A stretch of 33,817 nt of DNA, from positions 1-33,817 of the forward strand of contig JANXTM010000319.1 of the NCBI GenBank assembly GCA_025352405.1. Reading direction: 5' to 3'. This document shows, piece after piece, positions 8,319 to 15,284 of this stretch; within the stretch, counting starts at the first letter, position 1, and each line of letters begins with the position of its first letter. The DNA comes from Polaromonas sp. (lineage in GTDB: Bacteria > Pseudomonadota > Gammaproteobacteria > Burkholderiales > Burkholderiaceae_C). Both the position numbers and the translations under genes were made by a program. The notes under the pieces were generated by a model that was given only the letters and a program-made list of their open reading frames with translations, ran no database searches and had not been told where the DNA came from.

Positions 8319-9830
8319 ATGCAAACACCCGTCAGCAACCCACACACACAGCCTTCGCACATTTTGGTCATAGACGACGAACCGGACCTGCGCACCCTTT
8401 ACGAGCTCACCCTGGTGCGGGAAGGCTACCGGGTTGAGGCTGCGGGAGACCTGGCACAAGCGCGCCGGCACCTGAAGGACAAACGCTTTGACGCAGTCAT
8501 CACAGACATGCGTCTGCCAGATGGCCTGGGTCTGGAATTGCTACACGACATGGTGCTGCAGCAACGGCCCGAGCGCTGCGTGGTGATTACCGCGCACGGG
8601 TCTGCCGAAAACGCGGTTGAAGCGCTCAAAGCAGGTGCGTTTGACTACCTTACAAAGCCGGTTGATCTGAAGCAATTCAGAAGCGTGGTGGCATCGGCGA
8701 TACAAGGTGCCAGGGCGGCAACAGTCGTGCCTGTCGAGGAACTTCAGTCGATCAAAAATGAAATAATCAAGTTGCGCGTGCACCCAAGCGCAGGCAAGAT
8801 GGGCGTTGCGGCCACCGCACTGGAACGACTGATCGGCCAGTCGGCAGTCATGCAAGCCGTGAAATCGCGTACCGCCAAAGTGGCCGCCAGCATGGCGCCG
8901 GTGCTCATTCAGGGTGAGTCAGGGACGGGCAAGGAATTGGTTGCAAGAGCCGTGCATGGCTGTAGCCATCGCGCTAGCGGCCCGTTTGTTGCCGTCAATT
9001 GCGGTGCCATTCCTGAAAATCTGCTGGAAGCCGAATTTTTTGGGGCACGTAAGGGTGCTTACACTGGCTCGACGCAAGATCGGCTCGGGTATTTTCAGGC
9101 GGCCAAAGGGGGCACGCTGTTTCTGGACGAGATCGGCGATTTACCATTGGCGATGCAGTCAAAACTGCTGCGGGCCATTCAGGAGCGGGTGGTCAGGCCC
9201 TTGGGTTCCTCCCAGGAAGATGCTGTAGATGTGCGTATTGTGAGCGCCACACACAGGGAGCTTGAGGCCGAGGTCGGATCCGGTCGTTTTCGTCAGGATT
9301 TGTTTTACCGCCTCAACGTCATTGTGATTAACGTGCCCCCCCTGCGTGAGCGCCAGGAAGACCTGCCAGCACTTTGCAATGAATTGTTGGCCAGGATTTG
9401 TCGCGAGTCAGGCTTTAGTGTGCCGGTGCTGACACAGCGGGTGTTAGAACAACTTCAAACCCACCAATTTAACGGAAATGTGCGGGAACTGGAAAACATT
9501 CTTCATCGCGCCGTGGCGCTGAGCGAAGGCGGTGAACTGCATCTGGACGTACCGGTAGTTCAAGCTGTGAAATTATCCATTGCACCAGCACCGCCTGCGC
9601 TTGTGCCTGAAAATCTGCAGAATTACCTGGATGCGCAAGAGCGTGACATTCTCTCCAAGGTGCTGCGCGATACCCGCTTTAACCGCACCGCAGCGGCCAG
9701 CCGACTGGGCTTGAGTCTGCGTCAGATCCGTTACCGCATCGCCCGCCTGAATATCACCATGCCCGACGGCGACGCCGCTGAAAACAGCGATGGCTCCGAC
9801 CGCGCCCATCCTGCCGATGACCGCAACTAA
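8319..9830 (+). CDS. pilR: Sigma-54-dependent response regulator PilR
   Basis: 503 residues from ATG 8319; the frame is open upstream inside pilS, but the receiver domain begins here (ILVIDDEPDLR). The receiver has D63 as phosphoacceptor (ITDMRLPDG) with T91 and K113. The AAA+ domain has Walker A GESGTGKE (199-206), Walker B TLFLDEIGDL (266-275) and an arginine-rich sensor region. The sigma-54 contact loop reads GAYTGS (246-251) instead of the usual GAFTGA. A Fis-type helix-turn-helix closes the protein (FNRTAAASRLGLSLRQIRYRI). It is expected to activate pilA transcription after phosphorylation by PilS. Its 3' end overlaps the start of ampD. Confidence 0.94.
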   Translation: MQTPVSNPHTQPSHILVIDDEPDLRTLYELTLVREGYRVEAAGDLAQARRHLKDKRFDAVITDMRLPDGLGLELLHDMVLQQRPERCVVITAHGSAENAVEALKAGAFDYLTKPVDLKQFRSVVASAIQGARAATVVPVEELQSIKNEIIKLRVHPSAGKMGVAATALERLIGQSAVMQAVKSRTAKVAASMAPVLIQGESGTGKELVARAVHGCSHRASGPFVAVNCGAIPENLLEAEFFGARKGAYTGSTQDRLGYFQAAKGGTLFLDEIGDLPLAMQSKLLRAIQERVVRPLGSSQEDAVDVRIVSATHRELEAEVGSGRFRQDLFYRLNVIVINVPPLRERQEDLPALCNELLARICRESGFSVPVLTQRVLEQLQTHQFNGNVRELENILHRAVALSEGGELHLDVPVVQAVKLSIAPAPPALVPENLQNYLDAQERDILSKVLRDTRFNRTAAASRLGLSLRQIRYRIARLNITMPDGDAAENSDGSDRAHPADDRN

Positions 9831-10428
9831 ATCCGAAAGCGGCCCGGCACCAGCGCTGTGGCGAGGGGGCTGGTACCGCTACGCCAGAGCGCTCAAGTCG
9901 CCCAACAAAGGGTTGCGCCCCGCCAATGCCCGGGTTGATCTGATTGTTGTTCATTCCATCAGTCTGCCGCCCGGGGAATTTGGCACTCAAAACGTGCAAC
10001 GCCTGTTCACCAACCAATTGGACTGGGATGCACACCCCTACTTCAAGGGCCTACGCGGACTTCAAGTCTCGGCGCACTTTTTTATCGCCCGGTCCGGCGA
10101 ACTTTGGCAATTCGTCAGCTGCGATGAGCGTGCATGGCATGCAGGGCAGTCAAGCTATCGGGGCCGCGACAACTGCAATGACGACTCGATTGGCATTGAA
10201 CTTGAAGGTCTCGAAGGCGGCATCTTTGAGACGCTTCAGTACGAGACCCTGGCTGGGCTGTGCGCCGCTGTCATGGCGCGCTACCCGATCGAACATCTGG
10301 CAGGCCATGAGCACATTGCGGCAGGTCGAAAGCAAGACCCGGGACCCGGCTTTGATTGGCCTTTTTTACAACGTTGTTTGGCCGCGCCAGATCGGTATTT
10401 TCCAGAGCCCGGCCGAGGCAGGCGCTGA
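9790..10428 (+). CDS. ampD: 1,6-anhydro-N-acetylmuramyl-L-alanine amidase AmpD
   Basis: An amidase_2-fold zinc enzyme that cuts the peptide from anhydro-muropeptides during cell-wall recycling in the cytoplasm; its loss derepresses ampC in many species. From ATG 9790 the expected zinc ligands are H55 (VVHSISLPPGEFG), H173 (AGHEHIAAGRK) and D183 (KQDPGPGFDW), with E137 (SIGIELEG) and K181 as catalytic residues, matching the E. coli pattern. There is no signal peptide, which fits AmpD rather than AmiD or a periplasmic amidase. A second ATG at 9817 would give 203 residues and shorten the overlap with pilR to 14 nt. Neither start has a clear Shine-Dalgarno sequence, so translational coupling to pilR is likely. 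Confidence 0.93.
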   Translation: MAPTAPILPMTATKSESGPAPALWRGGWYRYARALKSPNKGLRPANARVDLIVVHSISLPPGEFGTQNVQRLFTNQLDWDAHPYFKGLRGLQVSAHFFIARSGELWQFVSCDERAWHAGQSSYRGRDNCNDDSIGIELEGLEGGIFETLQYETLAGLCAAVMARYPIEHLAGHEHIAAGRKQDPGPGFDWPFLQRCLAAPDRYFPEPGRGRR

Positions 10429-10676
10429 CAAGCTTCGTGTCGTCACCTGCACGTTAGACAAAGCTCCGCAACACTTTGGTAGGCAAAGTGAGACTGCGCA
10501 CGCCGCTACAAGGAAAACTGCCCGAAAAGGCGCATGAATACGCTTTTTACAGGCCGCGTATCTGATGGAACAAGGCTTCCCGGCATATCTGGATATATTT
10601 CAAATATGTTTTTCAATACGAACAAAAAAACAAGCTCGCGCAGCAGCAAACATTTTCGGCGACAATACAAGTTAAA

Positions 10677-10692
10677 ACACTACCTGTAGTGC
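10677..10692 (+). promoter_or_regulatory. NrdR box 1 (operator)
   Basis: A 16-bp palindrome with half-sites ACACTA and TAGTGC around CCTG. It fits the NrdR box pattern (ACAC-A...T-GTGT type). NrdR is the zinc-finger/ATP-cone repressor of ribonucleotide reductase genes. It lies just upstream of the -35 hexamer. Confidence 0.85.
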
Positions 10693-10721
10693 TTGAATTC
10701 GCTTCAGACACTAGGTATAGT
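10693..10721 (+). promoter_or_regulatory. Promoter of nrdA
   Basis: TTGAAT (10693-10698), a 17-nt spacer, then TATAGT (10716-10721). The -35 abuts NrdR box 1 and the -10 lies within NrdR box 2, so repressor bound to both would block RNA polymerase. The start of transcription would be near 10728, leaving a leader of about 209 nt. Confidence 0.75.
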
Positions 10722-10723
10722 GT
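10708..10723 (+). promoter_or_regulatory. NrdR box 2 (operator)
   Basis: A 16-bp palindrome with perfect half-sites ACACTA and TAGTGT around GGTA. Its centre is 31 bp from the centre of box 1, three turns of the helix, which is the usual NrdR arrangement. It contains the -10 hexamer TATAGT. Confidence 0.9.
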
Positions 10724-10936
10724 ACAGATTGATACGATCTCGAGGTCATTTAGTCATTTTTGAACATCCAATTGGGCAACAAAACCCATTGAAATAGCAC
10801 CATGATGTGCCGTAACAAATTCATTGCAAAAACATTCTGCTCTTGCGACACAGGTCCAAACAACCCAACGCGTCATGCGAGCAACGTCTGCAGAACATAT
10901 TAACCAGACAAATTCAAAAAATTTAAGAGAAAGTCC

Positions 10937-13873
10937 ATGCAAACAACCCATAACACCCTACCCGCCGCCAGCAGCGTATCGCCCGTCACCCCACAGGGCA
11001 ACGAAAGCCGTGCGCAAACCAACTCGTTCAGCAACTACCAGATCATCAGGCGCAATGGCGGGGTAGTTCCGTTCGAGCCGAACAAAATTGCGGTCGCCAT
11101 GATGAAGGCCTTTTTGGCTGTACACGGCACGCAGGGTGCTGCGTCCGCGAGCGTTCGCGAGACCGTCGACAGCCTGACCCAGACGGTCATGCGTGCCATG
11201 ATGCGCTCGCGTCCCGGTGGCGGCACCTTTCACATTGAAGATGTGCAAGACCAGGTTGAACTTGGCTTGATGCGCGGTGGTCACCACGAAATCGCCAGAG
11301 CCTATGTGCTTTACCGTGAAAAACGCACGCAAGAGCGTGCCCGCCAACCCCAGGCACAAACATCGGCAGTCACCTTGCTGCACGTCGTTGACGGCGGCAA
11401 ACGGGTTGCGCTGGACATTCGTAACCTCCAGGCTCTGATCGAAGCCTCGTGCGCCAACCTTGGCGCCGGCGTCAAGCCCGACCCCATCGTTGCAGAGACC
11501 ATGCGCAACCTGTACGACGGCGTACCGATTGACGAGGTTTACAAAGCGTCCATTTTGGCAGCCCGCACGCTGATTGAAAAAGACCCCGACTACACCTACG
11601 CCACCGCGCGCCTGTTGATGCATACCATTCGCCGTGAAGTGCTGGGAGAAGAAGTTGCACATGAAGAAATGCAGACCCGCTATGCCGAGTATTTCCCAAA
11701 GTTCATCGCCAAGGGCGTGCAGAACGAACTGCTCGACGAAAAACTCCAGCAGTTTGACCTGGCCCGCCTGGGCGCAGCCCTCAAGCCTGAGCGCGATCTG
11801 AAATTTGATTACCTTGGCCTGCAAACATTGTTTGATCGCTATTTTTTGCATGTACGCAAGCAACGCATCGAATTGCCACAGGCATTTTTTATGCGTGTCG
11901 CCATGGGCCTGTCGCTCAATGAAATAAACCGCGAAGAACGGGCGATCGAGTTCTACGAAATCCTGTCGTCATTTGATTTCATGTCCAGCACGCCAACGCT
12001 GTTTAACTCTGGCACGCTGCGCTCGCAGCTGTCATCGTGCTACCTGACCACGGTCGCTGATGACCTGGGCGGTATTTATGACGCGATCAAAGAAAACGCG
12101 CTGCTTTCAAAGTTTGCTGGCGGTCTGGGCAACGACTGGACGCCAGTGCGTGCACTCGGCGCCCACATCAAGGGTACCAATGGCGAATCACAAGGCGTCG
12201 TGCCTTTCCTGAAGGTTGTGAACGATACGGCTGTTGCGGTTAACCAGGGCGGCAAGCGCAAGGGTGCGGTCTGCGCCTACCTCGAAACATGGCATCTCGA
12301 CATTGAAGAGTTCTTGGAGCTGCGCAAAAATACTGGTGATGACCGCCGGCGCACACACGACATGAACACTGCCAACTGGATTCCTGACCTTTTCATGCGT
12401 CGTGTCATGGAAAAAGGCACCTGGACCCTGTTTTCTCCCAACGACACGCCCGATCTGCATGACAAATTCGGCAAGGATTTCGAGAAAATATATGTCGCCT
12501 ACGAAGCCAGAGCCGAGCGCGGGGAGCTCAAACCTTCACGCACGCTGCAAGCCTCCGACATGTGGCGCAAGATGCTGTCGATGCTGTTTGAAACGGGCCA
12601 CCCTTGGATTACGTTCAAGGACGCCTGCAACATCCGCTCACCCCAGCAGCATGTTGGTGTTGTGCACTCGTCCAACCTGTGTACAGAGATCACGCTCAAC
12701 ACCAGCGAAACTGAAACTGCTGTGTGCAATCTCGGCTCGGTCAATCTGGTACAGCACTTGAAGGACGGTGCAGATGGTGCCAAGGTTCTTGATCACGCGA
12801 AGTTGCAAAAGACCATCACCACCGCCATGCGCATGCTGGACAACGTGATCGACATCAACTACTACGCCGTTAAAAAGGCCCGTGACTCCAATATGCGCCA
12901 TCGTCCTGTGGGTCTGGGCATCATGGGCTTTCAGGACTGCCTGTATGAGCTGCGCGTACCTTACGCATCTGACGCTGCAGTAGAGTTTGCAGACAAGTCG
13001 ATGGAAGCCGTCTGCTACCACGCCTATTGGGCCTCTACCGAGCTGGCAAAAGAGCGCGGCAAGTACGCCAGCTACAAAGGCTCGCTGTGGGACCAAGGCA
13101 TCCTGCCACTCGATACGCTGAACATGCTGGCCGAAGAACGTGGTGGTTACGTGGAAGTTGACCGTTCAGCCACACTGGACTGGGACGCACTGCGCGGGAA
13201 AATCGCACAGGACGGCATGCGTAATTCCAACTGCGTGGCCATTGCGCCAACAGCCACCATCTCGAACATCATTGGTGTGGACGCCTGTATCGAACCCTGC
13301 TTTGGCAACCTGTCCGTCAAGTCCAACCTGTCGGGTGAGTTCACTGTCATCAACCATTACCTGGTACGCGACCTGAAAAGCCTGGGCCTATGGGACGATG
13401 TGATGGTGGTTGATCTCAAACACTTTGATGGTTCACTGCGTCCAATTGATCGCGTGCCTCAAGACATCAAGGCGCTGTATGCCACGGCCTTCGAAGTCGA
13501 GACTTCGTGGATTGTCGAAGCTGCCGCGCGTCGCCAGAAATGGATTGACCAAGCACAGTCACTGAACATTTACATGGCTGGTGCATCGGGCAAAAAACTT
13601 GACGAGACCTACAAACTGGCCTGGATTCGTGGCTTGAAAACAACCTACTATCTCCGGACGCAAAGCGCTACACACGCCGAAAAATCAACCGTTCAGGCGG
13701 GCAAAATGAATTCGGTGTCGGCAGGCGGCATGCTTAAAAATAATGCCCTCAGCAGCAGCCTGAGTACGCTCGACGCAGCGGTGCTTGCAGCCCAGGCACA
13801 GATGAGTGCGCCACCTGCAACCGATGTTAAATTTTGCGCCATCGACGATCCTGGTTGCGAGGCGTGTCAATAA
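10937..13873 (+). CDS. nrdA: Class I ribonucleoside-diphosphate reductase, alpha subunit NrdA
   Basis: A 978-residue catalytic subunit that reduces NDPs to dNDPs. Residues about 33-127 form an ATP-cone (IIRRNGG-VVPFEPNKI). Residues about 145-237 align with the single ATP-cone of E. coli NrdA (DPDYTYATARLLMHTIRREV), so this protein has two in tandem, as in Pseudomonas aeruginosa NrdA. Active-site residues are N580, C582 and E584 in SNLCTEI, with the redox pair C368 (LSSCYL) and C597 (AVCNLGS). The C-terminal shuttle cysteines are C974 and C977 in GCEACQ. The large size relative to E. coli (761 residues) is due mainly to the extra cone and inserts. It is expressed from an NrdR-controlled promoter and followed 169 bp later by nrdB. 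Confidence 0.97.
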   Translation: MQTTHNTLPAASSVSPVTPQGNESRAQTNSFSNYQIIRRNGGVVPFEPNKIAVAMMKAFLAVHGTQGAASASVRETVDSLTQTVMRAMMRSRPGGGTFHIEDVQDQVELGLMRGGHHEIARAYVLYREKRTQERARQPQAQTSAVTLLHVVDGGKRVALDIRNLQALIEASCANLGAGVKPDPIVAETMRNLYDGVPIDEVYKASILAARTLIEKDPDYTYATARLLMHTIRREVLGEEVAHEEMQTRYAEYFPKFIAKGVQNELLDEKLQQFDLARLGAALKPERDLKFDYLGLQTLFDRYFLHVRKQRIELPQAFFMRVAMGLSLNEINREERAIEFYEILSSFDFMSSTPTLFNSGTLRSQLSSCYLTTVADDLGGIYDAIKENALLSKFAGGLGNDWTPVRALGAHIKGTNGESQGVVPFLKVVNDTAVAVNQGGKRKGAVCAYLETWHLDIEEFLELRKNTGDDRRRTHDMNTANWIPDLFMRRVMEKGTWTLFSPNDTPDLHDKFGKDFEKIYVAYEARAERGELKPSRTLQASDMWRKMLSMLFETGHPWITFKDACNIRSPQQHVGVVHSSNLCTEITLNTSETETAVCNLGSVNLVQHLKDGADGAKVLDHAKLQKTITTAMRMLDNVIDINYYAVKKARDSNMRHRPVGLGIMGFQDCLYELRVPYASDAAVEFADKSMEAVCYHAYWASTELAKERGKYASYKGSLWDQGILPLDTLNMLAEERGGYVEVDRSATLDWDALRGKIAQDGMRNSNCVAIAPTATISNIIGVDACIEPCFGNLSVKSNLSGEFTVINHYLVRDLKSLGLWDDVMVVDLKHFDGSLRPIDRVPQDIKALYATAFEVETSWIVEAAARRQKWIDQAQSLNIYMAGASGKKLDETYKLAWIRGLKTTYYLRTQSATHAEKSTVQAGKMNSVSAGGMLKNNALSSSLSTLDAAVLAAQAQMSAPPATDVKFCAIDDPGCEACQ

Positions 13874-14042
13874 ACATGCCGGCTCTTGTGTTGCACAGTA
13901 CGATGAAATTATTCACGCCAGCTGGCAGCTTGATTTAATGCGCCAATTCGATGTAATAGAGCAACACAAATTACGGCGATGTGAATGAACACTTTTCATT
14001 TTGTACCGCTGCTTTCATAATCAAAAAATATTGGAAATTTCT
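13874..14042 (+). other. nrdA-nrdB spacer with inverted repeats
   Basis: A 169-bp spacer with a perfect 9-bp inverted repeat, TTGTGTTGC (13886-13894) and GCAACACAA (13961-13969). Between the arms lies the 10-bp palindrome GCCAGCTGGC (13917-13926). A possible weak promoter, TTGATT (13930-13935) - 16 nt - TGTAAT (13952-13957), sits inside the same segment. GGAAA about 9 nt before the nrdB ATG is the likely ribosome site. No T-run follows the stem, so it does not look like a simple terminator. Confidence 0.5.
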
Positions 14043-15284
14043 ATGTTGACCTGGGACGAAGAAGTCAAACCGACATCGCAACAAACTTTTACCAGCGACC
14101 TGTCAGACAGCCGCTCGATGGAACTTCCGCCTTTCTCTTTTGCAGCTGCTTCCACGCATTCTTCTGCACTGCCAGAAGCACAAAGACGCACACTGGATGA
14201 TGGTGCACTCACATCTGCAACCGCGACATCAACGACCCCATCAGGCGCAGCTGAGCCTGCAGTCATGAAGCGCGTCAAGGCCTCAGACAAACGCATCATC
14301 AATGGTCAGACCGACGTGAACCAGCTGGTACCTTTCAAATACAAATGGGCGTGGGAAAAGTACCTGGCGAGTTGCGCTAACCACTGGATGCCACAAGAGG
14401 TCAATATGACCCGTGATATTGCGTTGTGGAAGGATCCGAACGGCTTGACCGAAGACGAGCGCCGTCTGGTCAAACGCAACCTCGGCTTTTTTGTCACGGC
14501 GGACTCACTGGCCGCGAACAACATCGTGCTGGGCACTTACCGCCACATCACGGCCCCGGAATGCCGCCAGTTCCTGCTGCGTCAGGCTTTCGAAGAAGCC
14601 ATTCATACCCACGCTTACCAGTACATCACCGAATCCCTAGGGTTGGACGAAGCCGAAATTTTTAACGCTTACAACGAAGTGCAGTCGATCAAGGACAAGG
14701 ACCAGTTCCTGATTCCGTTCATTGAAGTGATCTCTAACCCACATTTCAAGACCGGCACACCCGAAGCTGACCAAACCCTGCTTAAGTCGCTGATTGTGTT
14801 CGCCTGTTTGATGGAAGGCCTGTTCTTCTACGTTGGCTTCACCCAAATTCTTGCGCTTGGCCGCCAGAACAAGATGACAGGCGCTGCCGAGCAGTACCAG
14901 TACATTTTGCGCGACGAGTCCATGCACTGCAACTTTGGAATCGACCTGATCAACCAGCTCAAGCTTGAGAATCCGCATTTGTGGACAGCCGAATTCAAGG
15001 CTGAAATCAAGGCCTTGTTCATGCAGGCCGTAGAGCTGGAGTACCGCTACGCTGAAGACACCATGCCGCGGGGCGTGCTGGGGCTCAACGCCTCCATGTT
15101 CAAGGGCTATCTGCGCTATATCGCCAACCGTCGTGCCACCCAGATTGGCCTTGAGACGCTGTTTCCAAATGAAGAAAATCCATTTCCATGGATGAGCGAA
15201 ATGATTGACCTCAAAAAGGAACGTAACTTTTTCGAAACCCGAGTGATTGAATACCAGTCTGGCGGCGCCCTTTCCTGGGACTGA
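14043..15284 (+). CDS. nrdB: Class I ribonucleoside-diphosphate reductase, beta subunit NrdB
   Basis: A 413-residue diiron radical subunit paired with NrdA. Metal ligands and the radical tyrosine follow the class Ia pattern: D154 ([11 protein letters not shown]), then E185, H188 and Y192 in [12 protein letters not shown], where Y192 is at the position of E. coli Tyr122. The presence of this Tyr argues against class Ic. The C-terminal tail that contacts the alpha subunit ends [10 protein letters not shown]. The first 80 or so residues are a Ser/Thr/Ala-rich, low-complexity extension not found in E. coli NrdB. The start at 14043 (MLTWDEEV) is preferred to 14001 because it has GGAAA just upstream. 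Confidence 0.97.

Follow-up and report, generated by a model that had tools for sequence, protein, structure and literature searches.

NrdR operators in described systems

As described for other bacteria, the repressor NrdR acts as a dATP/ATP-loaded tetramer that blocks a promoter from two boxes about three helical turns apart (PMC9110341, PMC12051234), and binding is best at spacers of 15-17 bp between the boxes (PMC12051234). According to the structural work on NrdR from Streptomyces coelicolor, the DNA is kinked near 90 degrees at each box, the kink being placed at AT bases, which stack weakly, while D15 and R17 confer DNA specificity and a D15A variant binds even mutant boxes strongly (PMC9110341). 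The locus considered here is the nrdAB region in a stretch of 33,817 nucleotides (hereafter the window; contig C95 of a 3.78-Mb draft genome with 346 contigs and 96.8% completeness), which carries two such boxes upstream of nrdA.

Among the closest counterparts are the nrdHIEF and nrdDG operators of Escherichia coli that, like the window, have two boxes with a 15-bp spacer upstream of a ribonucleotide reductase operon (PMC12176259). The E. coli boxes are described with a central AT, whereas those of the window have CT and GT. Yet one AG-centred E. coli box is part of a high-affinity pair (PMC12176259), and the requirement for an AT centre is hence not absolute. E. coli nrdAB shares with the window a box in the -10 region with a partner roughly three turns away; there, however, the -10 box (box 0) is poor and the genuine pair is formed by boxes 1 and 2 further downstream (PMC12176259). 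As NrdR binding to boxes 0 and 1, the pair over the promoter that had originally been proposed, is reported to be 40-50 times weaker than to the nrdDG and nrdHIEF sites (PMC12176259), overlap with a -10 element alone is no proof of an operator.

Salmonella Typhimurium nrdAB and nrdHIEF likewise have two tandem boxes 31-32 bp apart. The NrdR2 box of nrdHIEF overlaps the -10 in the same arrangement as in the window, and mutation data suggest that this box is not used, while in nrdAB, the operon of homologous function, it is the first bases of box 1 that overlap the -10, unlike in the window (PMC2892513). The nrd promoters of Pseudomonas aeruginosa also combine two NrdR boxes, one of them overlapping the -10, but this is box 1, whereas in the window it is box 2, with box 1 just upstream of the -35 (PMC4409342). 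In Listeria monocytogenes, the nrdDG pair and the proximal nrdAB pair overlap the RNA polymerase site as here, albeit in a different phylum and with a 16-bp spacer instead of the 15 bp of the window (PMC12051234). Finally, the S. coelicolor NrdR–DNA structure shares R17, the RRRR motif and the GC pairs of the boxes with the present system, but residue 15 is Asp in the studied NrdR proteins and Glu in the one encoded here (PMC9110341).

Box pairs, their three-turn distance and their overlap with promoters are already known, and an arrangement like that of the window is also in print. What the present comparison adds is that homologous nrdAB promoters appear to occupy either of two registers on the same conserved operator, and that residue 15 of NrdR differs between Asp and Glu. 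Neither a promoter-register difference nor residue 15 in Burkholderiales was found by title or opening of the abstract in the literature searched, most of it non-subscription.

The nrdAB locus and its box pair

The boxes are housed in the 508-bp gap between ampD (end at 10428) and nrdA (start at 10937). The relevant features, all on the + strand of the window, are as follows.

10677..10692, +: NrdR box 1, ACACTACCTGTAGTGC (sequence, genome match, counterpart in relatives)
10693..10698, +: predicted -35 TTGAAT, directly 3' of box 1 (sigma-70-like scan; TTG offset in relatives)
10708..10723, +: NrdR box 2, ACACTAGGTATAGTGT, holding the predicted -10 (sequence, genome match, counterpart in relatives)
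10716..10721, +: predicted -10 TATAGT inside box 2 (sigma-70-like scan; TATAGT placement in relatives)
10728..10936, +: putative nrdA leader, about 209 nt with a start near 10728 (from the -10 position)
10937..13873, +: nrdA, class I ribonucleotide reductase alpha subunit, 978 aa (NF005544, 1791.9 bits)
14044..15284, +: nrdB, beta subunit (NF005550, 693.3 bits, scanned from 14001)

An earlier note on this DNA had described two 16-bp boxes with centres 31 bp apart, a -35 that touches the first and a -10 within the second, and all of these were recovered at the coordinates above. The distance from box 1 to box 2 is 31 bp, or three helical turns, start to start and centre to centre, leaving a spacer of 15 bp. 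In their outer six-base arms, 5/6 positions of box 1 and 6/6 of box 2 are complementary; palindromy is incomplete in the inner bases, and the whole dyad thus reaches 6/8 in each box. Compared with the NrdR core ACACTA-N4-TAGTGT, the boxes match at 11/12 and 12/12 positions, respectively. Both contain the conserved GC pairs, which are mapped here to positions 4 and 13 of the box, while the centres (CT in box 1, GT in box 2) are not of the AT type. The latter is a point against the assignment, since the published kink sits at AT bases. Core match, 15-bp spacer, a position upstream of nrdA and nrdB and an nrdR gene in the same genome are nevertheless all found together. In summary, the pair is very probably the canonical NrdR operator of nrdAB, on which an NrdR tetramer would cover the region from -35 to -10 and exclude RNA polymerase.

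The -35 and -10 hexamers are 17 bp apart and constitute the only sigma-70-like site in a scan of 10429-10940. With a 9/12 match and 0.7 such sites expected by chance, this promoter call is weak when taken alone. From the position of the -10, transcription would start near 10728. No known RNA element was detected in the nrdA leader, as Rfam gave no match up to E = 5 in 9500-14200.

NrdAB is the sole ribonucleotide reductase operon detected in the draft genome. One NrdA was found and no NrdD; the NrdJ model had no match above its cut-off, its only match below being the same nrdA locus. The best named matches of the window's NrdA are MAGs of Polaromonas (88%) and Rhodoferax (85%), and as these nest among the window's genus relatives in the NrdA tree, the window belongs to the Comamonadaceae lineage. 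As a side observation, the most likely start of nrdB is the ATG at 14044 (MLTWDEEV) rather than the mechanically called TTG at 14001; this ATG and the residues after it are aligned and largely conserved across 18 genus loci.

Chance expectation and uniqueness in the genome

Palindromy itself was rejected as sufficient evidence. Of 200 shuffles of the window, 21 contain two similar palindromes, whatever their sequence, at a distance of 20-45 bp, which makes the symmetry by itself not striking. A different picture arises when the pair is scored against the NrdR core at 30-32 bp: it reaches 23/24, compared to a top score of 18 among 150 shuffles, with the reservation that the core ACACTA-N4-TAGTGT was chosen with the window sequence known. 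A looser first pattern, whose inner spacing was wrong, had shown no excess (20 matches vs 23 expected).

Throughout the 3.78-Mb genome, exact matches to ACACTANNTNTAGTG are confined to these two boxes, and with up to two mismatches there are 50 matches vs 246 for the reversed control. A whole-genome pair search at 31 bp with up to three mismatches returned the nrdA pair only, and the same search at 32 bp returned none (control 0 in both cases). Hence, within three mismatches and at 31 or 32 bp, no second operator was found in this genome.

Conservation of the pair among relatives

From 25 genomes of the genus, 19 nrdA loci were fetched, of which one (L042) is cut. With pair distances from 20 to 45 bp all allowed, the best pair lies at 31 (14 loci) or 32 bp (4 loci) in each of the 18 loci, among them that of the window, whose upstream sequence is long enough. 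Sixteen genomes from other families of the order yielded 11 loci, with best pairs at 30 (1), 31 (6) or 32 bp (4) and lower scores of 16-20; the pairs of L052, L053, L054 and L062 score 16-18 and thus lie within the shuffle range of the named loci (up to 18). These named loci are a set of 80, the best of 588 candidates, reduced to 79 as one was too short. In 78 of the 79, the best pair is at 30 (4), 31 (35) or 32 bp (39), and in none of these 78 did any of 30 shuffles each match the pair score. The 79th, L104, has a pair of 18/24 at 31 bp about 600 bp upstream, a score that shuffles can reach. Two more sets of 20 promoters each contain 19 with a pair scoring at least 19, the exceptions being those of genomes G112 and G040. 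All these counts include loci that are not independent, since each of the pairs L043/L063, L083/L205 and L069/L230 seems to come from one genome or from two almost identical ones, and G040 is counted twice (as L053 and L243). The recurrence of a pair at 30-32 bp upstream of nrdA across the order supports the interpretation of the earlier note, which had read the palindromes as paired NrdR boxes at nrdA.

Genomes in which nrdR was not found offer a further comparison. They amount to 4/41 genomes and 3/120 family genomes, and a repeat search with the NrdR protein of the window's genome again detected none in G112, G083, G135 and G040. Box status was assessed for G112, G040, G083, G135, G006 and G016, the nrdA of G011 being absent from the set of fetched loci. 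G112 is a single contig scored as 100% complete; no box pair was detected within the roughly 2.5 kb ahead of its nrdA (best score 13, own shuffles 13-16). In G040, which is 99% complete, the pair is weak, or eroded, with a score of 16. G083, G135, G006 and G016 have good boxes with scores of 19-22 despite the missing nrdR and thus speak against a strict co-occurrence; the lack of nrdR in them likely reflects assembly gaps (82-95% complete, 130-620 contigs). Apart from its promoter, G112 (locus L246) stands out by its NrdA, which at 68% is the least identical of the listed family matches.

Two promoter registers on one operator

The position of the promoter on the operator was compared in 107 loci, in which two registers were distinguished: register A, with the -10 at box 2 positions 9-14 as in the window, and register B, with the -10 at box 1 positions 5-10. 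By a simple consensus score, 75 loci belong to A and 27 to B, and 5 are tied. In an NrdA FastTree of 106 rows, a single branch with a local support of 99 splits the registers; the tree has local support values only and no outgroup root, and L051 was dropped, as its translated stretch has 8 aa. On one side of this branch are 72 A loci and one tie (Comamonadaceae, Sphaerotilaceae and relatives; the comamonad side), on the other side 27 B loci, four ties and two A loci (Burkholderiaceae, Oxalobacteraceae, Rhodocyclaceae and others). The two A loci, L061 and L118, break the split by score, and L118 sits on a very short branch beside the drawn root. In the side counts given below, sides are taken from the tree and L051 is placed on the comamonad side by its genus.

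The -35 element follows the same division. On the comamonad side, a TTG is present at the A place only in 59/74 loci, at both places in one and at neither in 14, while on the other side it is at the B place only in 27/33, at the A place only in one and at neither in five. Counted by register instead of side, 58/75 A loci have a TTG 15 bp upstream of box 2. Two extra sets have TTG at the A place in 14/19 and 18/19 loci with good pairs, 3/32 of which also have it at B. As for the -10, the B place is filled by TATACT, TAGAAT or TACAAT in 26/33 loci of the other side and in 0/74 of the comamonad side. The A place reads TATAGT in 62/74 comamonad-side loci, but also in 12/33 loci of the other side, and is weak evidence alone because TATAGT is part of the NrdR box consensus itself.

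Among register-A loci, the tree implies at least 15 switches of the box distance from 31 to 32 bp or back. Yet, the spacer between -35 and -10 remains 17 bp in 58/60 TTG-bearing comamonad-side loci, no matter whether the boxes are 31 or 32 bp apart. The extra base therefore usually lies between box 1 and the -35, and promoter and operator both appear to be constrained.

Judged from these placements, the promoter in the clade of the window appears to be displaced by about 35 bp on an operator that is itself conserved. The resemblance of the P. aeruginosa and S. Typhimurium nrdAB promoters to register B suggests by analogy that register A is the derived state here. The fuller reading, in which the nrdAB promoter of comamonads and Sphaerotilaceae was re-registered on a conserved operator, with the -10 moving downstream from box 1 to box 2, and repressor and operator perhaps co-evolved, has about even chances of being correct. 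In such a re-registered promoter, the operator would cover the region from -35 to -10, compared to the region from -10 to beyond the start in the other register.

The repressor and its residue 15

The earlier note had proposed to look for nrdR elsewhere in the genome, its absence being taken to speak against the whole reading. One gene was found on contig C22, well above the family cut-off, so that this objection falls away.

C22:26630-27061: nrdR, single copy (TIGR00244, 178.7 bits vs cut-off 124.65)
L001 1501-1932 (nrdR) and family loci L174-L203: NrdR residue 15 observation

The protein has the CxxC pairs of a Zn-ribbon, R17 and the RRRR motif, combines Zn-ribbon and ATP-cone, and aligns with chains of the E. 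coli NrdR structure over residues 2-142 (E 1.8e-41). R17 is retained, but residue 15 is Glu, not Asp. This exchange is conservative and common in the family, and the protein still scores far above the family cut-off. Autoregulation of nrdR was rejected, as the best pair in the 300 bp upstream of the gene scores only 13/24. Upstream of nrdR in the 28/30 loci that could be evaluated, the best pair does not exceed 14/24 either. These low scores accord with a survey of NrdR regulons in 186 proteobacterial genomes, in which NrdR is reported as never autoregulated in Proteobacteria (PMC5343134).

Glu15 was found in 30/30 family loci (the best-scoring 30 of 117) and in 15/16 genus loci, where L157 has Asp. 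In the other families of the order, 13/14 loci have Asp and L155 has Glu. Box 1 differs between the two sides of the tree: at its positions 7-10, the mean number of G/C is 3.15 on the comamonad side vs 1.15 on the other side. Register-A loci have C at position 7 of box 1 in 61/75 cases and G at position 10 in 60/75, and a central AT is present in just 8/74 comamonad-side loci, whereas most NrdR boxes are described with AT in the middle. From these patterns, the E15 repressor and the G+C-rich box 1 may have evolved together. The link between register, E15 and the centre of box 1 is only a correlation, because the traits follow one clade with few exceptions. G037, from which L155 derives, has E15 together with a promoter that resembles register B (L054, a tie in the scoring), and thereby speaks against a close coupling of register and residue 15.

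Proposed repression and alternative explanations

By analogy to the systems described in other species, from which NrdR binding, its nucleotide dependence and steric blocking are inferred for this locus, NrdR loaded with ATP plus dATP would form a tetramer when dATP is plentiful. This tetramer would grip both boxes from the same face of the helix, kink the DNA at each of them and cover the promoter from -35 to -10, such that RNA polymerase would be shut out. At low dATP, NrdR with ATP alone would adopt other oligomers and release the DNA.

Conceivably, the boxes bind NrdR while the main nrdAB start lies elsewhere, with repression achieved by looping or by a roadblock. The modest promoter match set against its chance expectation leaves room for such a mechanism, as do the long implied leader, the occurrence of TATAGT within box 2 of loci in the other register and the comamonad-side loci that lack a TTG at both places. 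Against it stand the TTG at a fixed distance before box 2 in most register-A loci and the 17-bp promoter spacer that persists at either box spacing. On balance, a start elsewhere is improbable, and direct occlusion of the promoter by NrdR on its operator is preferred.

It is more improbable still that the palindromes serve another regulator or have arisen by chance. The frequency of arbitrary palindrome pairs in shuffles of the window would permit this. The boxes, however, match the NrdR core at the appropriate spacing, and the pair is unique in the genome at the thresholds given above. Moreover, it is conserved upstream of nrdA and is absent or weak in G112 and G040, two near-complete genomes in which nrdR was not found.

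As the sole operator found at these thresholds lies at the only ribonucleotide reductase operon detected, disruption of nrdR or of the boxes should read out unambiguously in this organism. Beyond the single genome, the order provides a natural experiment, in which the same operator geometry is combined with two promoter positions and with a repressor whose specificity residue is altered. Whether the two registers permit equally effective repression by NrdR, and what residue 15 recognizes, thereby become testable questions.

A possible conserved hairpin between nrdA and nrdB

Downstream of nrdA, the nrdA–nrdB gap contains a hairpin-forming stretch (13967-14016) that is conserved in the genus and has no Rfam match. 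Its inner stem is AATGAA/TTTCATT, and the outer arms, which resemble GCAGCGAT/ATCGCTGC in many relatives, are shorter in the window. The element could set the NrdA:NrdB ratio. The stretch was cut out and folded in 16/18 loci; the alignment-wide fold is weak (-1.6), and a single clear two-sided change was recognized by eye, namely GCGGT/ACCGC in L046.
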